A DNA stretch of 64,000 bases. It comes from Cytobacillus dafuensis (GTDB lineage Bacteria > Bacillota > Bacilli > Bacillales > Cytobacillaceae). The notes under the pieces are model-generated. The model did not search any database, was not told the origin of the DNA, and worked only from the letters and a program-made list of their open reading frames with translations. Positions 6,135 to 51,382 of the stretch are shown one piece after another. The DNA is taken from contig NZ_CP042593.1 in the NCBI RefSeq assembly GCF_007995155.1, forward strand, positions 2,460,001 to 2,524,000, read 5' to 3'. Positions within the stretch are counted from its first letter, which is position 1, and every line of letters starts with the position of its first letter. Position numbers and translations under genes: made by a program.

Positions 6135-7619
6135 ATGAGCCAATTAACTGTTAGTTTAAAAGAGAAGGTAGAAAAATTTCTAAATGGTAAGAAACATTTG
6201 TATATTAATGGAGAATTTGTTGAAAGCAAGTCTCAGAAGACATTTGAAACTTATAATCCAGCCACTGGTGAGGTTCTCGCTAACGTTTTCGAAGCCGGTC
6301 CTGAAGATATTGATCTTGCAGTTCGTGCAGCAAGGAAGGCATTTGATGAAGGACCATGGTCTAAAATGGGATCTGCTAAAAGAAGCCGTCTCATGTACAA
6401 ACTTGCTGATTTAATGGAAGCGAATAGTGCTGAATTAGCTCAATTAGAAACTTTGGATAATGGAAAGCCAATTCGTGAAACTACGAATGCGGATATTCCT
6501 CTAGCTATTGAACATATGCGCTATTATGCAGGCTGGAGTACAAAAATCGTGGGACAAACGATACCTGTGAATGGTCCTTTCTTTAACTATACTCGTCATG
6601 AAGCTGTCGGAGTTGTTGGACAAATCATTCCTTGGAACTTCCCTCTCCTTATGGCAATGTGGAAATTAGGAGCAGCCCTTGCAACAGGATGTACTGTTGT
6701 TTTAAAACCGGCAGAGCAAACTCCACTATCCGCTCTATTTTTAGCTGAATTAATTCAAGAGGCCGGATTCCCTCCAGGTGTTGTAAATATTGTTCCTGGC
6801 TTTGGTGAAACTGCTGGTCAGCCGCTTGTTGATCATCCATTAGTCGACAAAATTGCCTTTACTGGCTCAACTGAAATTGGGAAAATGATAATGGAAAAAG
6901 CATCAAAAACATTGAAGCGTGTAACACTCGAATTAGGCGGAAAATCCCCTAATATCATACTTCCTGATGCAGATCTGTCAAGAGCGATCCCAGGTGCCTT
7001 AAATGGAGTAATGTTTAATCAGGGGCAAGTTTGCTGTGCTGGTTCACGTGTCTTTATTCAAAAGAAGCAATTTGATAATGTCGTTGCTGATATGGCTGCA
7101 CATGCGAAAAAGATTAAACAAGGTGCTGGTCTTCATTCTGATACAGAGATTGGGCCGCTTGTATCAATTGAACAGCAAAATCGTGTTTTAGGCTTTATTG
7201 AAAAAGGATTAAATGAAGGTGCACAGCTTGTTGTTGGTGGTGAGAAGCCTCAAGAACAAGGGTACTTTGTCTCCCCTACTATTTTTGCTGATGTTAATGA
7301 CGACATGACGATCGCAAAAGAAGAGATTTTCGGTCCAGTCATTTCTGCTTTACCATATGAAGATCTCGATGAACTCATTAATCGAGCAAATAGCAGCGAG
7401 TATGGGCTAGCTGCTGGAGTATGGACTCGTGACATAGCAAACGCTCATTATATTGCCAATAAGCTTCGTGCCGGTACTGTGTGGGTAAATTGTTACAATG
7501 CCTTTGATGCTGCATCTCCTTTTGGAGGCTACAAGCAATCCGGAATTGGTCGAGAAATGGGATCATATGCGCTTAACAACTATACCGAAGTGAAAAGCGT
7601 CTGGATTTCAATGAAGTAA
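6135..7619 (+). CDS. dhaS: NAD-dependent aldehyde dehydrogenase, DhaS-like
   Basis: 494 residues, full length for the class. It closely resembles B. subtilis DhaS from end to end, for example RRLMYKLADLMEANSAEL-like helices, HMRYYAGW, GQIIPWNFPLLMAMWK and the C-terminal YKQSGIGREMGSYALNNYTE. The catalytic Glu is in ELGGKSPN and the catalytic Cys in GQVCCAGSR (around residue 300). It oxidises aldehydes to carboxylic acids. The physiological substrate is not evident. An AAGGAGG site precedes the ATG. It is a single-gene unit behind a cre site and ends in a hairpin terminator. Confidence 0.93.
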   Translation: MSQLTVSLKEKVEKFLNGKKHLYINGEFVESKSQKTFETYNPATGEVLANVFEAGPEDIDLAVRAARKAFDEGPWSKMGSAKRSRLMYKLADLMEANSAELAQLETLDNGKPIRETTNADIPLAIEHMRYYAGWSTKIVGQTIPVNGPFFNYTRHEAVGVVGQIIPWNFPLLMAMWKLGAALATGCTVVLKPAEQTPLSALFLAELIQEAGFPPGVVNIVPGFGETAGQPLVDHPLVDKIAFTGSTEIGKMIMEKASKTLKRVTLELGGKSPNIILPDADLSRAIPGALNGVMFNQGQVCCAGSRVFIQKKQFDNVVADMAAHAKKIKQGAGLHSDTEIGPLVSIEQQNRVLGFIEKGLNEGAQLVVGGEKPQEQGYFVSPTIFADVNDDMTIAKEEIFGPVISALPYEDLDELINRANSSEYGLAAGVWTRDIANAHYIANKLRAGTVWVNCYNAFDAASPFGGYKQSGIGREMGSYALNNYTEVKSVWISMK

Positions 7620-7677: not shown

Positions 7678-7724
7678 TGATCGCTAAGCCACAAGACGTG
7701 GCATTTTGAGCGTGATAAGTTCAC
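7678..7724 (+). repeat. Remnant of the double-hairpin repeat family
   Basis: This stretch keeps the family's left-end tag (TTGATCGC) joined directly to its middle segment (GCCACAAGACGTGGCATTTT then GAGCGTGA). Both hairpins of the full copies at 11.5 and 38.5 kb are gone. It reads as an internally deleted, decaying copy in the same orientation. Confidence 0.65.
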
Positions 7725-8908: not shown

Positions 8909-10528
<1,620 letters not shown>

Positions 10529-11099: not shown

Positions 11100-11276
11100 C
11101 GAGTATAAAGAAAACTCGCCGATTGGCGAGCCTTGGAAAGGCGAAGACAGAGGCGAAGTTGCACCTACACTTAATTCCTAAAATTGGCAACTACGTCGAA
11201 TCATCTTCTGCGCTGCCAATTTATACTTTCTTAACGTGTTAGAAAAACTTGGCGTTCGCCAAATCTTTTCCGGCGA
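11100..11276. repeat. Structured intergenic sequence with several hairpins, probably a repeat
   Basis: No reading frame here looks coding. CTCGCC-GATT-GGCGAG forms a tight hairpin near the start. AAATTGGCA (11181-11189) pairs with TGCCAATTT (11214-11222). GGCG-AACGCC-like segments recur near 11252-11270. GTATAAAGAAA at the left and TTTATACTTTC near 11220 form an imperfect outer pair. The GC-rich patches contrast with the AT-rich surroundings. I take it for a Bacillus-type dispersed repeat. No second copy lies in this window. Confidence 0.45.
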
Positions 11277-11385
11277 ATGCCTTAGATTTACTTATGCGAT
11301 ATTTTTAGCAGACATTTTATCGGAATTTCAAATTTTCTATATTAATCTAATTAAATTTAAATTTCTTATTAACCATAAAAGGGAC

Positions 11386-11493
11386 TGTCCCAAAAGCAAA
11401 GGTGTCAGGCATCACCGACAATATAGAGAATCATTAAACGAGTGGGATTCTAGATATTGTATATTAGATGGATGCCAGACACCTTATGGGACA
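11386..11493. repeat. Long palindromic repeat (MITE-like hairpin)
   Basis: TGTCCCA (11386-11392) and AAGGTGTCAGGCATC (11399-11413) pair with GATGCCAGACACCTT (11471-11485) and TGGGACA (11487-11493), one mismatch. CAATAT and ATATTG form an inner pair. The GGGACTGTCCC / GGTGTCAGGC pattern resembles palindromes scattered in Bacillaceae genomes, which I recall but cannot check here. It has no coding capacity. Confidence 0.7.
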
Positions 11494-11500
11494 ATGCCTT

Positions 11501-11776
11501 TGATCGCAGATTAACGGGCAGTAAGACCCCCATTACAAGGTTGCGAGAGAATCAAAGAAACTCTGTAATGGGGGATCAACTGCCCGTAAAGGCCCGACGA
11601 CGGACACGATGTCCTAGTCAGGCGAAAGCCACAGGACGTGGCGTTTTGAGCGTGATTGGTTCAACTAACCATCAGTGGGGGATGAAAGCCGACTAAGAAC
11701 GCCACGTCCTATGGCAACGTCGGCACTAGCACGTCCTGTGCGTCGGAAAACCCCCACTGATGGAAGTTTCACTTTA
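11501..11776 (+). repeat. Double-hairpin repeat, copy A
   Basis: Starts TGATCGCAGATTAACGGGC and ends GAAGTTTCACTTTAT. Hairpin 1: TTAACGGGCAGT with ACTGCCCGTAA outside, CCCCCATTACA with TGTAATGGGGG inside. The middle carries GACGGACACGATGTCCTAGTC and GCCACAGGACGTGGCGTT. Hairpin 2: CCATCAGTGGGG (11669-11680) with CCCCACTGATGG. Its loop is longer than in other copies and contains AACGCCACGTCCTATGGC, which can pair back to the middle segment. The element ends 6 bp from the stop codon of the minus-strand regulator gene. Confidence 0.85.
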
Positions 11777-11781
11777 TTTCG

Positions 11782-19878: not shown

Positions 19879-19903
19879 GAGGCTGCCCATATGAGCAGCC
19901 TTT
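19879..19903. terminator. Hairpin upstream of pncB, possibly displaced terminator
   Basis: GGCTGC (19881-19886) pairs with GCAGCC (19895-19900). Only a short T stretch follows on either strand. It may be the original terminator of the gene at 20054-20980, now separated from it by repeat copy B. Confidence 0.4.
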
Positions 19904-19905
19904 AT

Positions 19906-20056
19906 CCCGCATTAACGGGCAGTAAGACCCCCACCACAACATTGAGATTGAAGCGAGGAAGATAGGTGGGGGACAACTGCCCGTAAAAACCCGATTGGTT
20001 CAACTAACCATCAGTGGGGGATAAAAAAACCCCCCGCTGATGGAAGTTTCACTTTA
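19906..20056 (+). repeat. Double-hairpin repeat, copy B (short form)
   Basis: Begins CGCATTAACGGGCAGTAAGA and ends GAAGTTTCACTTTAT. Hairpin 1 has the same outer stem as copy A but a different inner stem, CCCCCACC with GGTGGGGG. The middle segment seen in copies A and C is absent: CCCGA joins straight to TTGGTTCAACTAACC. Hairpin 2 is CCATCAGTGGGGG with CCCCCCGCTGATGG, a T-G wobble replacing a T-A pair. The TTA at 20054-20056, inside the conserved end, is the stop codon of the minus-strand gene that follows. Confidence 0.85.
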
Positions 20057-20980
20057 TATATGCTTTGTTTTACGATTTCCCCAAAATTGATAGAAAACAA
20101 ATGGCGTACAAATCAGTACAGGAAAAATATAATAACTAAGGCGATAAAACATAATAATCAACAAGCTTACCTCTGCAGGAATCCCATGCGTTTCCATCCC
20201 AATGAGAAAGACAAGATCAAAGGATCCAATGCCACCGGGGATTAAGCTAATAATTCCAGCACACGCGGAAATGATAACAACCGGAAATATGATTGAAAAT
20301 GGGATAGCAACATCTAATAAATGAGCAATTCCCCAAATACAAATACCTACAAACAACCATTCAAAAATAGAAATTGTTATTAATTCAGAAATATAGCCTT
20401 TCTTTAAATTCTCCAGGCTCCAAAACTTTTTTCTGAATGAAAATAAAACCATTAATAAGGGGGTATAAACTGCAATTGCCCAAACAGCTAATTTTATCAA
20501 AGGTATTTCTTTATAAACATGCAAATTAGAGAAAATAACGATCCAAGAAAAAATGGAAAGTCCAGTTAAGTAAAATAGTGAAAGCTTTGCAATAATTCGG
20601 ATATAAGGCACAGTATCCGGTACATACCTACGATAATAATAAGATCTTAGGGTAGCTCCTGCCACTCCGCCAAAACCAACTAAGTTCGAATAAGCATTCG
20701 CAGATAAAGAGTAAAATAGTAACTTGCTTTTCGGCAATTTCACATGAAAAAGGTTTAATAGAATCACATCGTAAAAATACATTGGAACCAAAGCAATCAA
20801 TCCAATAATTAACATCATAACGATGTTTTGAATCGATAACCTGTCCAAATAATGATTAATTAAATCCCAGTTGAAATCCTTAAATAACCCTTGTGCTTCA
20901 AATCCAATCAAAAATAATATAAGAAATGGAACGAATATCTTTGCCACTTTATAAACATTTTTACGATTTAGAAAAGACAA
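20054..20980 (-). CDS. YbhN/UPF0104-like membrane protein (MprF flippase-type domain)
   Basis: 308 residues with about eight membrane helices. LVGFGGVAGATLRSYYYRR and ACAGIISLIPGGIGSFDLVFL are the conserved stretches of the lysylphosphatidylglycerol-synthase membrane region/UPF0104 family. The C-terminal aminoacyl-transferase domain of MprF is absent, so it is not a full MprF and a lipid-flipping role is only inferred. The stop codon lies within the end of repeat copy B, so the insertion may have set the present C-terminus (NRKTKHI). Confidence 0.8.
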   Translation of the reverse strand: MSFLNRKNVYKVAKIFVPFLILFLIGFEAQGLFKDFNWDLINHYLDRLSIQNIVMMLIIGLIALVPMYFYDVILLNLFHVKLPKSKLLFYSLSANAYSNLVGFGGVAGATLRSYYYRRYVPDTVPYIRIIAKLSLFYLTGLSIFSWIVIFSNLHVYKEIPLIKLAVWAIAVYTPLLMVLFSFRKKFWSLENLKKGYISELITISIFEWLFVGICIWGIAHLLDVAIPFSIIFPVVIISACAGIISLIPGGIGSFDLVFLIGMETHGIPAEVSLLIIMFYRLSYYIFPVLICTPFVFYQFWGNRKTKHI

Positions 20981-35910: not shown

Positions 35911-36077
35911 TTCTTATCAAGAGAGGTCGAGGGTAAGGCCCAGTGACGCCTCAGCAACCATCAATCACATATGATTGAAAAGGTGCTAATTCCTGCAAGT
36001 TTTTTTAAAACTTGAAAGATAAGAAGAATGGCGCTGTTTCTTTTGAAAAGTCTTCTTCTTATAAGAGGGCTTTTTTT
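35911..36077 (+). promoter_or_regulatory. S-box (SAM-I) riboswitch with terminator, controlling metI
   Basis: P1 is TTCTTATC (35911-35918) with GATAAGAA (36018-36025). Between them are the S-box core elements GAGAGGTCGAGGG, GGCCC, TGACGCC, CAGCAACC and AAGGTGCTAATTCC. The terminator is AAGTCTTCTT (36048-36057), loop CTTAT, AAGAGGGCTT, then T7. AAGAAGAA at the P1 3' side can pair with TTCTTCTT of the terminator, giving the antiterminator. High SAM should stop transcription of metI-metC and possibly the whole block. Confidence 0.96.
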
Positions 36078-38442: not shown

Positions 38443-38465
38443 AACTCCATTTTTGAAGTTTCAAT

Positions 38466-38682
38466 TGATCGCAGATTAACGGGCTGTAAGACCCCCACTT
38501 CAAGAAGTTGAGTTAAGAATAAATTTCTAAGTGGGGGATCAACAGCCCGTAAAAGCCCGACGACGGACAGGATGTCCTAGTCAGGCGAAAGCCACAGGAC
38601 GTGGCGTTTTGAGCGTGATTGGTTCAACTAACAATCAGTGGGGAATGAAGGAAAACCCCCACTGATTGAAGTTTCACTTTAT
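38466..38682 (+). repeat. Double-hairpin repeat, copy C
   Basis: Begins TGATCGCAGATTAACGGGCT and ends GAAGTTTCACTTTAT. Outer stem 1 is TTAACGGGCTGT with ACAGCCCGTAA: relative to copy A both strands changed (A-T to T-A). Inner stem CCCCCACTT with AAGTGGGGG. Middle segment GACGGACAGGATGTCCTAGTC and GCCACAGGACGTGGCGTTTT. Hairpin 2 is CAATCAGTGGGG with CCCCACTGATTG, again a paired change relative to copy A. It separates metC from yitJ. Confidence 0.87.
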
Positions 38683-48543: not shown

Positions 48544-48704
48544 AATCAGACCTCCTTTGTTGAATTGGAGCAATAAATAATATTTTCACTAGATTATTCG
48601 TAATCAAGTTGCTAGTTTTGGGGGTACAAAAAAAGAGAAAACAATTTTTATTCATTCAAAATGAACAAGAAATCGTTTTTTTTTTGATTTCTTTTCAGCT
48701 GATC

Positions 48705-51024: not shown

Positions 51025-51189
51025 AAAAAAAACTCCCCTTTTGTTTAATACGTTACCTCAAGGGGAGAATAGAAATTCATGTAAAATAAACATTCTACTC
51101 ATGCCACATTCCTACGCTAGAATTGACTAACAGGTTCGAAGGGTCAGAACAACTATGTGTTCACTCTCAGCAATTAGCTCCCCTTGTGG
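51025..51189 (-). promoter_or_regulatory. TPP (THI-box) riboswitch with overlapping terminator and Shine-Dalgarno of thiT
   Basis: On the minus strand P1 is CCACA (51189-51185) with TGTGG (51108-51104). The core has AAGGGGAGC, GCTGAGAGTG, GACCCTTCGAACCTG and GCGTAGGAA. Downstream, CTCCCCTT (51067-51060) pairs with AAGGGGAG (51040-51033), followed by T8: a terminator whose 3' arm is also the thiT ribosome binding site. The aptamer strand CAAGGGGAG (51186-51178) can pair with the same CTCCCCTTG, forming the antiterminator without TPP. Confidence 0.95.
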
Positions 51190-51382
51190 TTACGTTTATG
51201 TAATTGTTCCTATATTAGTATATATGACTTTCCAACATATGTGAAGTTGAAATGTTCATATTACTCCCCTCTCAACTTCCTAAATTATTAATTCCAATTT
51301 TTTCTTCATTTTACATGAAAATGGGACTACCCCTGCCCTATTTATGTTATTTATAATAATAATACATAAGGGAGGGAATACA

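Follow-up and report, generated by a model that had tools for sequence, protein, structure and literature searches.

PATEs of the haloarchaeon Haloquadratum are described as elements of non-coding size that have palindromes near their ends, no terminal inverted repeats and no target duplication; some copies are reported to have lost the core and to retain only the termini (about 50 bp), and another class of small repeats, SMR-A, is reported to target the palindromes regularly (PMC3119063). The IS200/IS605 family is presented as having subterminal hairpins, a short target sequence on the 5' side of the left end and transposases that act on the lagging-strand template (PMC6006769). In the Bacillus cereus group, the group A repeats bcr1 to bcr3 combine, by their descriptions, TTTAT, mobility, high copy number and a conserved secondary structure, with lengths of 147 and 167 nt for bcr1 (PMC6542083, PMC2267715). 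Repetitive extragenic palindromic sequences (REPs) and the associated RAYTs provide a further case of non-coding, high-copy hairpin repeats (PMC3733652). Each of these systems shares features with a repeat that is present in three copies in a stretch of 64,000 nucleotides of the Cytobacillus dafuensis genome (contig NZ_CP042593.1, positions 2,460,001 to 2,524,000), hereafter the window. Sequence comparisons indicate that this repeat is probably a non-autonomous, PATE-like element, related to IS200/IS605, that moves as single-stranded DNA. The closest known kinds appear to be haloarchaeal PATEs and, judged by length and flanking TTTAT, the bcr1 repeats of B. cereus.

The three window copies, all on the forward strand, follow a common plan consisting of a 5-mer (TTTAT or TTGAT), about 8 nt, a left hairpin built of two stems (outer and inner), a linker, a right hairpin and AAGTTTCACTTTAT. 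Copy 1 (11505..11777) is a long form preceded by the left target 5-mer TTGAT (11500..11504), the whole spanning 11500-11777 with flanking 5-mers. It comprises the left hairpin (11514..11587; outer stem ACGGGCAGT/ACTGCCCGT, inner stem CCCCCATTACA/TGTAATGGGGG), the 58-nt insert B in the linker (11596..11653), the right hairpin (11669..11763; stem CCATCAGTGGGGG/CCCCCACTGATGG) with insert C in its loop (11689..11746), and the right end TTTAT. Copy 2 (19906..20057; 152 nt), preceded by TTTAT (19901..19905; together 19901-20057), is a short form devoid of inserts; short forms generally measure about 152 nt, the left 5-mer not included. Copy 3 (38470..38682), preceded by TTGAT (38465..38469; together 38465-38682), is an intermediate form harboring insert B only (38559..38616; 58 nt). 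An earlier note on this DNA had reported a two-hairpin repeat family with common ends and no coding frame at 11501-11776, 19906-20056 and 38466-38682. The three copies were all recovered, and the spans including the 5-mers replace those coordinates. The left end quoted in the note as common applies to copies 1 and 3, in which TTGAT is followed by CGCAGATTAACGGG, and not to copy 2, in which TTTAT is followed by CCCGCATTAACGGG. The lack of a coding frame was borne out, since no open reading frame (ORF) of at least 80 aa lies wholly inside any of the three copies; one 92-aa ORF (11236-11514) extends 10 nt into copy 1. Terminal inverted repeats were found neither in the window copies nor in an alignment of short forms, palindromes being located near both ends instead. 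The Rfam search proposed in the note gave a divided answer: at gathering scores no family matches the element itself, and in copy 1 only an insert matches (RF01690).

The host genome is a single contig of 4.916 Mb, in which the left-end and right-end patterns had 195 and 201 matches, respectively, with up to 3 mismatches, whereas both reversed patterns had 0 matches under the same conditions. The three window copies are members of a family of about 200 copies in this Cytobacillus genome. A covariance model, which the note had also called for, was built from the short form and searched in 299 genomes drawn evenly from the host's order. Element matches were detected in 122 of the 299 genomes, representing 65 of 117 genera, although some were weak (E up to 0.001); insert-free full-length matches of about 145-160 nt were present in many genera. 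The family thereby differs from bcr1, which is confined to the B. cereus group. Phages gave no element matches; in viral contigs, the left-end pattern had 0 matches and the right-end pattern matched 1 stretch (L228). Three plasmid records matched the element at E 1e-5 and five at E 10, with no match in plasmids of the B. cereus group even at E 10. A plasmid record of Klebsiella grimontii (L225, CP079755.1) holds a Bacillaceae-like copy, reflecting either transfer or mis-assembly.

The left 5-mer was TTTAT in 110 of the 138 copies that could be parsed (of 145), and TTTAT occurred in a shifted register in 8 more. No conservation was observed upstream of this 5-mer. Among the 20 copies with another left 5-mer, TTTAT was kept at the right end in 18, and the copy's own variant was repeated at the right in 0. 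The converse situation, a left TTTAT with an altered or unread right end, was found in 12 copies (132 parsed). Since variant left 5-mers were never copied at the right, TTTAT does not result from target duplication.

Cytobacillus citreus FJAT-49705 is a close relative of the host (one protein at 99%; DNA identity mostly 91-95% in the window region), and comparison of the two genomes revealed sites that are filled in one and empty in the other, in both directions. Sites filled in the host and empty in C. citreus include that of the copy at window position 19906 (C. citreus locus L185, ~18624) and those of host loci L066 and L037 (the latter versus L193). Sites empty in the host and filled in C. 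citreus are located at window position 48577 and near 10521. The former is a TTTAT site on the reverse strand (48573..48577; ATAAA on the forward strand), at which C. citreus has a core-deleted mini copy. The empty-site junctions differ by about a base, as expected at this divergence, the junction at 48577 being exact. A difference of 276 nt in locus L057 was not counted as an empty site, as the sequence concerned does not belong to this family. Copies have been gained between close strains. In addition, head-to-tail copies share the intervening TTTAT and overlap by about 5 nt (locus L205; genomes G075, G158, and G264).

The orientation of the copies was compared with the direction of replication in four genomes, genome G075 (13 matches) lying outside this set. 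Replichore arms were set by sampled GC skew, and uncertain intervals were left out of the counts. The top strand was on the lagging-strand template for 77 of 97 left ends in the host (drawn from 100 exact listed ends, 195 in all), for 50 of 53 in G179 (66 matches in all), and for 37 of 44 in G252 (53 matches in all). Among 89 host copies, 68 were in the lagging-template orientation. This orientation was kept in 12 of 14 copies with both neighboring genes head-on to the fork, in 24 of 29 with one neighbor against the fork, and in 31 of 45 with none (1 neighbor unknown), ORFs being called for this count by a simple script and the replichore boundary being placed at 2.3 Mb. In the host genome, copy orientation tracks replication, not genes.

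The conservation of the hairpins was analyzed in alignment A1, which comprises 36 chosen short forms from the host, C. citreus, six further genomes, and one plasmid. In A1, 97.0% of the cells were paired, a figure that is favored by the structure having been drawn from one of the aligned sequences. Pairs changed on both sides numbered 12 versus 4.7 in shuffles, and the covariation score was 0.143 versus 0.059, none of 500 shuffles reaching the observed value. Sliding the partners destroyed the covariation, the observed value being far above the partner-slid controls. The paired changes in the hairpin arms are genuine. The paired arm differences quoted in the earlier note are all present, and the lack of covariation that the note had named as grounds for refutation was not seen.

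Template-switch correction operates between imperfect hairpin arms during replication, and the paired changes might have arisen in this manner rather than by selection on the hairpins. The double changes with few wobble intermediates and the length of the arms would fit such a process, as would the existence of core-deleted copies of about 45-53 nt produced by deletions between arm repeats. In these copies, the left 5' arm is fused to the right 3' arm at a repeated CCCCCACT (downstream in locus L012; L187, ~7388-7432; host genome positions 4083183 and 4647485). The core-deleted copies resemble the terminal-only PATEs of Haloquadratum. Template switching leaves unexplained the conservation of both hairpins over 65 of the 117 sampled genera. 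We regard it as a rather unlikely explanation by itself; it could also act as a contributor under the mobile-element reading.

The level at which the fold is maintained was assessed by counting wobble pairs, as an RNA fold should tolerate G.U but not A.C. In 139 oriented copies, whose arms were located by motif without gaps and with up to 4 or 5 substitutions, there were 53 G.T and 76 A.C cells, in addition to 100 other Watson-Crick and 108 other mismatched cells. SAM riboswitches were used as a control, the window itself containing SAM and TPP riboswitches (35911-36025 and 51092-51194, respectively). With a predicted structure, 83 sequences from loci of relatives gave 75 G.T and 5 A.C. Since prediction favors G.U over A.C, the count was repeated on the Rfam structure with 84 sequences, including that of the window, and gave 61 G.T and 6 A.C. 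The parity observed in the element indicates that resident copies bear no sign of maintenance as a top-strand RNA. Neutral decay after insertion would also result in parity; the test therefore opposes RNA maintenance and is not, alone, a proof of selection on DNA. The paired changes do reflect a conserved fold, as the earlier note had proposed, and this fold is most likely that of DNA. An RNA-level reading of the whole element was discarded on the basis of the wobble test against the SAM controls and of the replication-linked polarity.

The ends, the TTTAT target, the empty sites, the tandem copies sharing TTTAT, the replichore polarity, and the covariation without wobble preference together led us to the mobile-element reading. 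The suggestion of a non-autonomous IS200/IS605-type element, one of three candidates in the earlier note, is strongly supported by the lack of terminal inverted repeats, the target, the empty sites, and the strand polarity. We envision that a HUH (Y1) transposase supplied in trans would bind the two subterminal DNA hairpins exposed on the lagging-strand template, and would cut after TTTAT at the left and after the terminal TTTAT at the right. The element would then travel as single-stranded DNA and enter 3' of another TTTAT without target duplication. The motif (T/C)TAA, found just 5' of both hairpin feet in most rows of the alignment, might act as the guide. In this scheme, the enzyme, the single-stranded intermediate, and the guide are the inferred parts. 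In a putative second layer, passengers related to Bacillaceae-1 (see below) would lodge in resident elements, either in the linker or in the loop of the right hairpin, and then travel along.

The search for a transposase was conducted in the host genome, then in 8 and in 18 further genomes, 1 of 1, 13 of 13, and 30 of 73 Y1_Tnp matches being examined, respectively. The ends were scanned in all 44 loci and the covariance model was run on 36 of them. Several observations weigh against single-strand transposition. None of the 44 Y1_Tnp loci (24 genomes; some loci ending at contig ends) was bounded by these ends, and the mobilizing TnpA or RAYT gene that the earlier note had proposed to look for was thus not found among them. 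The sole Y1_Tnp match of the host genome is a RAYT-like gene (locus L061; intact frame of 211 aa), and no Y1 match was obtained in G005, G006, and G158, which carry copies. The polarity trend was weak in G088 (20 of the 31 matches listed out of 102, p=0.15). The putative guide is only partly complementary to TTTAT, and the near-equal G.T and A.C counts are also those expected of decaying copies. Other replication-linked transposable elements reportedly can also show strand orientation. Finally, the hairpins exceed the 20-25 nt given for IS200/IS605 ends in PMC6006769.

Elements or pieces thereof adjoin some Y1 genes on one side only (L285, L303, and L293; weakly L295 and L061). As no tnpA-bearing element with these ends was found among the 44 Y1 loci examined (30 of 73 matches in the last set), we refer to the repeat as PATE-like rather than as a proven IS605 derivative. 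It differs from IS200/IS605 members by the absence of tnpA and tnpB inside and by its longer hairpins. The difference from PATEs lies in the domain of life, in the lack of a parent IS605-type transposon with matching ends in our searches, in passengers that are kin of an Rfam RNA family, and in the strand polarity, which was measured here. A puzzle similar to the missing enzyme is encountered in Haloquadratum, for which strain-specific insertions are described although IS200-type genes are mostly broken (PMC3119063). Two near-identical IS605-type copies in G088 (L282 and L296) offer a useful comparison; their ends differ from those of this family, at least one of them is inserted after TTGAT, and ATCAA is located just before the left hairpin.

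A second possibility is that the copies are REP-like elements mobilized by the resident RAYT-type Y1 protein of L061. The gene is intact and is the only Y1_Tnp match of the genome, RAYTs are described as HUH enzymes acting on hairpin DNA (PMC6006769), and the covariance model has a weak match on one side of it (1131-1299, 15.6 bits, E 0.033). A hairpin with a perfect stem, which could be a terminator, makes up the right half of this match. The ends of the family do not enclose the gene, and the palindrome found in its neighborhood, GGTGCCTGTCACC, is different from them. The anatomy also differs, as each element has two different hairpins and the GTAG or CGTC tag carried by REPs, according to PMC3733652, was not seen at these ends. 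Together with the lack of Y1 matches in the three copy-bearing genomes mentioned above, these observations make the REP-like candidate of the earlier note improbable.

The inserts form a second set of repeats. In copy 1, the segment 11677-11742, which insert C overlaps, matches the Bacillaceae-1 family RF01690 with 55.7 bits for a gathering cut-off of 35. Inserts C and D both match the RF01690 model. Insert B is kin of insert C on the opposite strand, with an alignment score of 52 in this orientation; the same-strand alignment scored 22, and none of 200 shuffles exceeded 26. For 87 parsed copies out of 89 in the host, the linker contained no insert in 31, the 58-nt insert B in 28, and the longer insert D in 28. 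Where the linker held an insert, insert C also occupied the right-hairpin loop in 35 of 56 copies; where the linker was empty, it did so in 0 of 31. These values derive from loci picked by three queries and are therefore not genome frequencies; unparsed copies amounted to 2 of 89 in the host, 4 of 24 in C. citreus, and 3 of 32 elsewhere. In the host genome, at least 103 of 150 listed RF01690 matches (658 candidates) were located within 260 nt, on the same strand, of 200 listed exact element ends, and none of the 150 was so located on the opposite strand.

Five elements occupy the same site in the host and in C. citreus. They form a non-random sample, since the C. citreus stretches were picked around short-form matches and the window region. 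Insert B was present only in the host in three of them, inserts D and C only in C. citreus in one, and no insert in either genome in one. The orthologue of copy 3 in C. citreus lacks insert B and is otherwise identical. Inserts therefore come and go within resident elements: four of the five shared elements differ in what they carry, and the rest of each sequence, down to private variants close to the insert, is nearly the same in both genomes. The exchange may proceed by insertion or by gene conversion over short tracts between copies. The insert-free matches of about 145-160 nt found in many genera lead us to favor gain over loss.

Bacillaceae-1 extends beyond this element. RF01690 matches were present in 78 of 150 genomes of the order, 17 of which had at least 31. 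Among 19 new RF01690 loci, the unit was inside this element in 4 (L350, L357, L358, and L365, with left- and/or right-end matches), L353 had a weak right-end match, and 14 had no element end. By eye, several of the latter 14 sit inside other repeat families. The positions and the orientation of Bacillaceae-1 within the element vary (opposite in L365), which suggests independent entries. Here, Bacillaceae-1 behaves like a scattered repeat that sits within another mobile element, and it nearly lacks wobble pairs: 70 distinct copies contained 167 double Watson-Crick, 8 G.T, and 16 A.C cells. This count supports neither strand as RNA.

Further repeats were noted around these units. In L062, L068, and L090, Bacillaceae-1 is, by eye, inside another family of the form TCTAGCTCCG...CTCGAGG.CATAAGCC...GCGCTTTTC. 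An apparent decayed remnant of insert B is located at ~7680-7720 of the window, a longer remnant being found at the matching place in C. citreus (L185, 7292-7416). Another linker insert of 118-124 nt, present in Cytobacillus firmus (L105 and L208) and in Bacillus sp. NTK034 (L106), holds by eye an inverted copy of the element's own parts. A second repeat adjoins copy 1 on its left (window ~11380-11500; GGGACTGTCCC, AAGGTGTCAGGCATCACC ... GGATGCCAGACACCTTA), and similar text flanks the element in locus L078.

A third possibility is that the element, or its Bacillaceae-1 insert, acts as a structured RNA, for example as a CsrA sponge, the paired changes preserving an RNA fold. Bacillaceae-1 RNA is listed in Rfam, as RF01690, and appears as a table entry in PMC2864571. 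Its strand is described as uncertain, its reverse complement matching a CsrA site (PMC4333381), and bcr repeats are reported within mRNAs for 84 of 165 and 62 of 155 copies in two B. cereus strains (PMC3446304). Neither the element nor Bacillaceae-1 displays the wobble preference of the SAM control, and copies are gained between close strains and oriented with replication rather than with genes. The structured-RNA candidate of the earlier note is not retained for the whole element, and a role of either unit as RNA appears improbable. Lastly, a conventional DDE-type miniature inverted-repeat transposable element (MITE) is very improbable: PMC3733652 places bcr1 with those MITEs that have terminal inverted repeats, and flanking TTTAT can mimic a duplication, but terminal inverted repeats are absent here and target duplication is contradicted by the 20 variant left 5-mers.

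The mobile-element reading provides a concrete mechanism, readable from sequence, for a class of TTTAT-flanked repeats whose movement has been called site-specific-recombination-like or MITE-like. In a literature search that left subscription journals largely outside, and is thus a weak negative, no paper tied bcr1 or Bacillaceae-1 to single-strand transposition. We tentatively raise the possibility that Bacillaceae-1 is mainly a mobile DNA hairpin unit, a bacterial counterpart of SMR-A, that inserts into palindromic repeats, among them single-stranded-DNA transposons, at their linkers and hairpins. Its Watson-Crick-only covariation would then record recognition of DNA hairpins, and the host element, and by extension bcr1-type repeats, would move by replication-coupled single-strand transposition. 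If this is true, Watson-Crick-only covariation may have helped Bacillaceae-1 to pass as an RNA. Counting G.T versus A.C is a simple test that separates DNA-level from RNA-level covariation, and it calls into question the status of an Rfam family for which the coding strand had already been uncertain. Finally, replichore polarity may make such elements natural recorders of the direction of replication.
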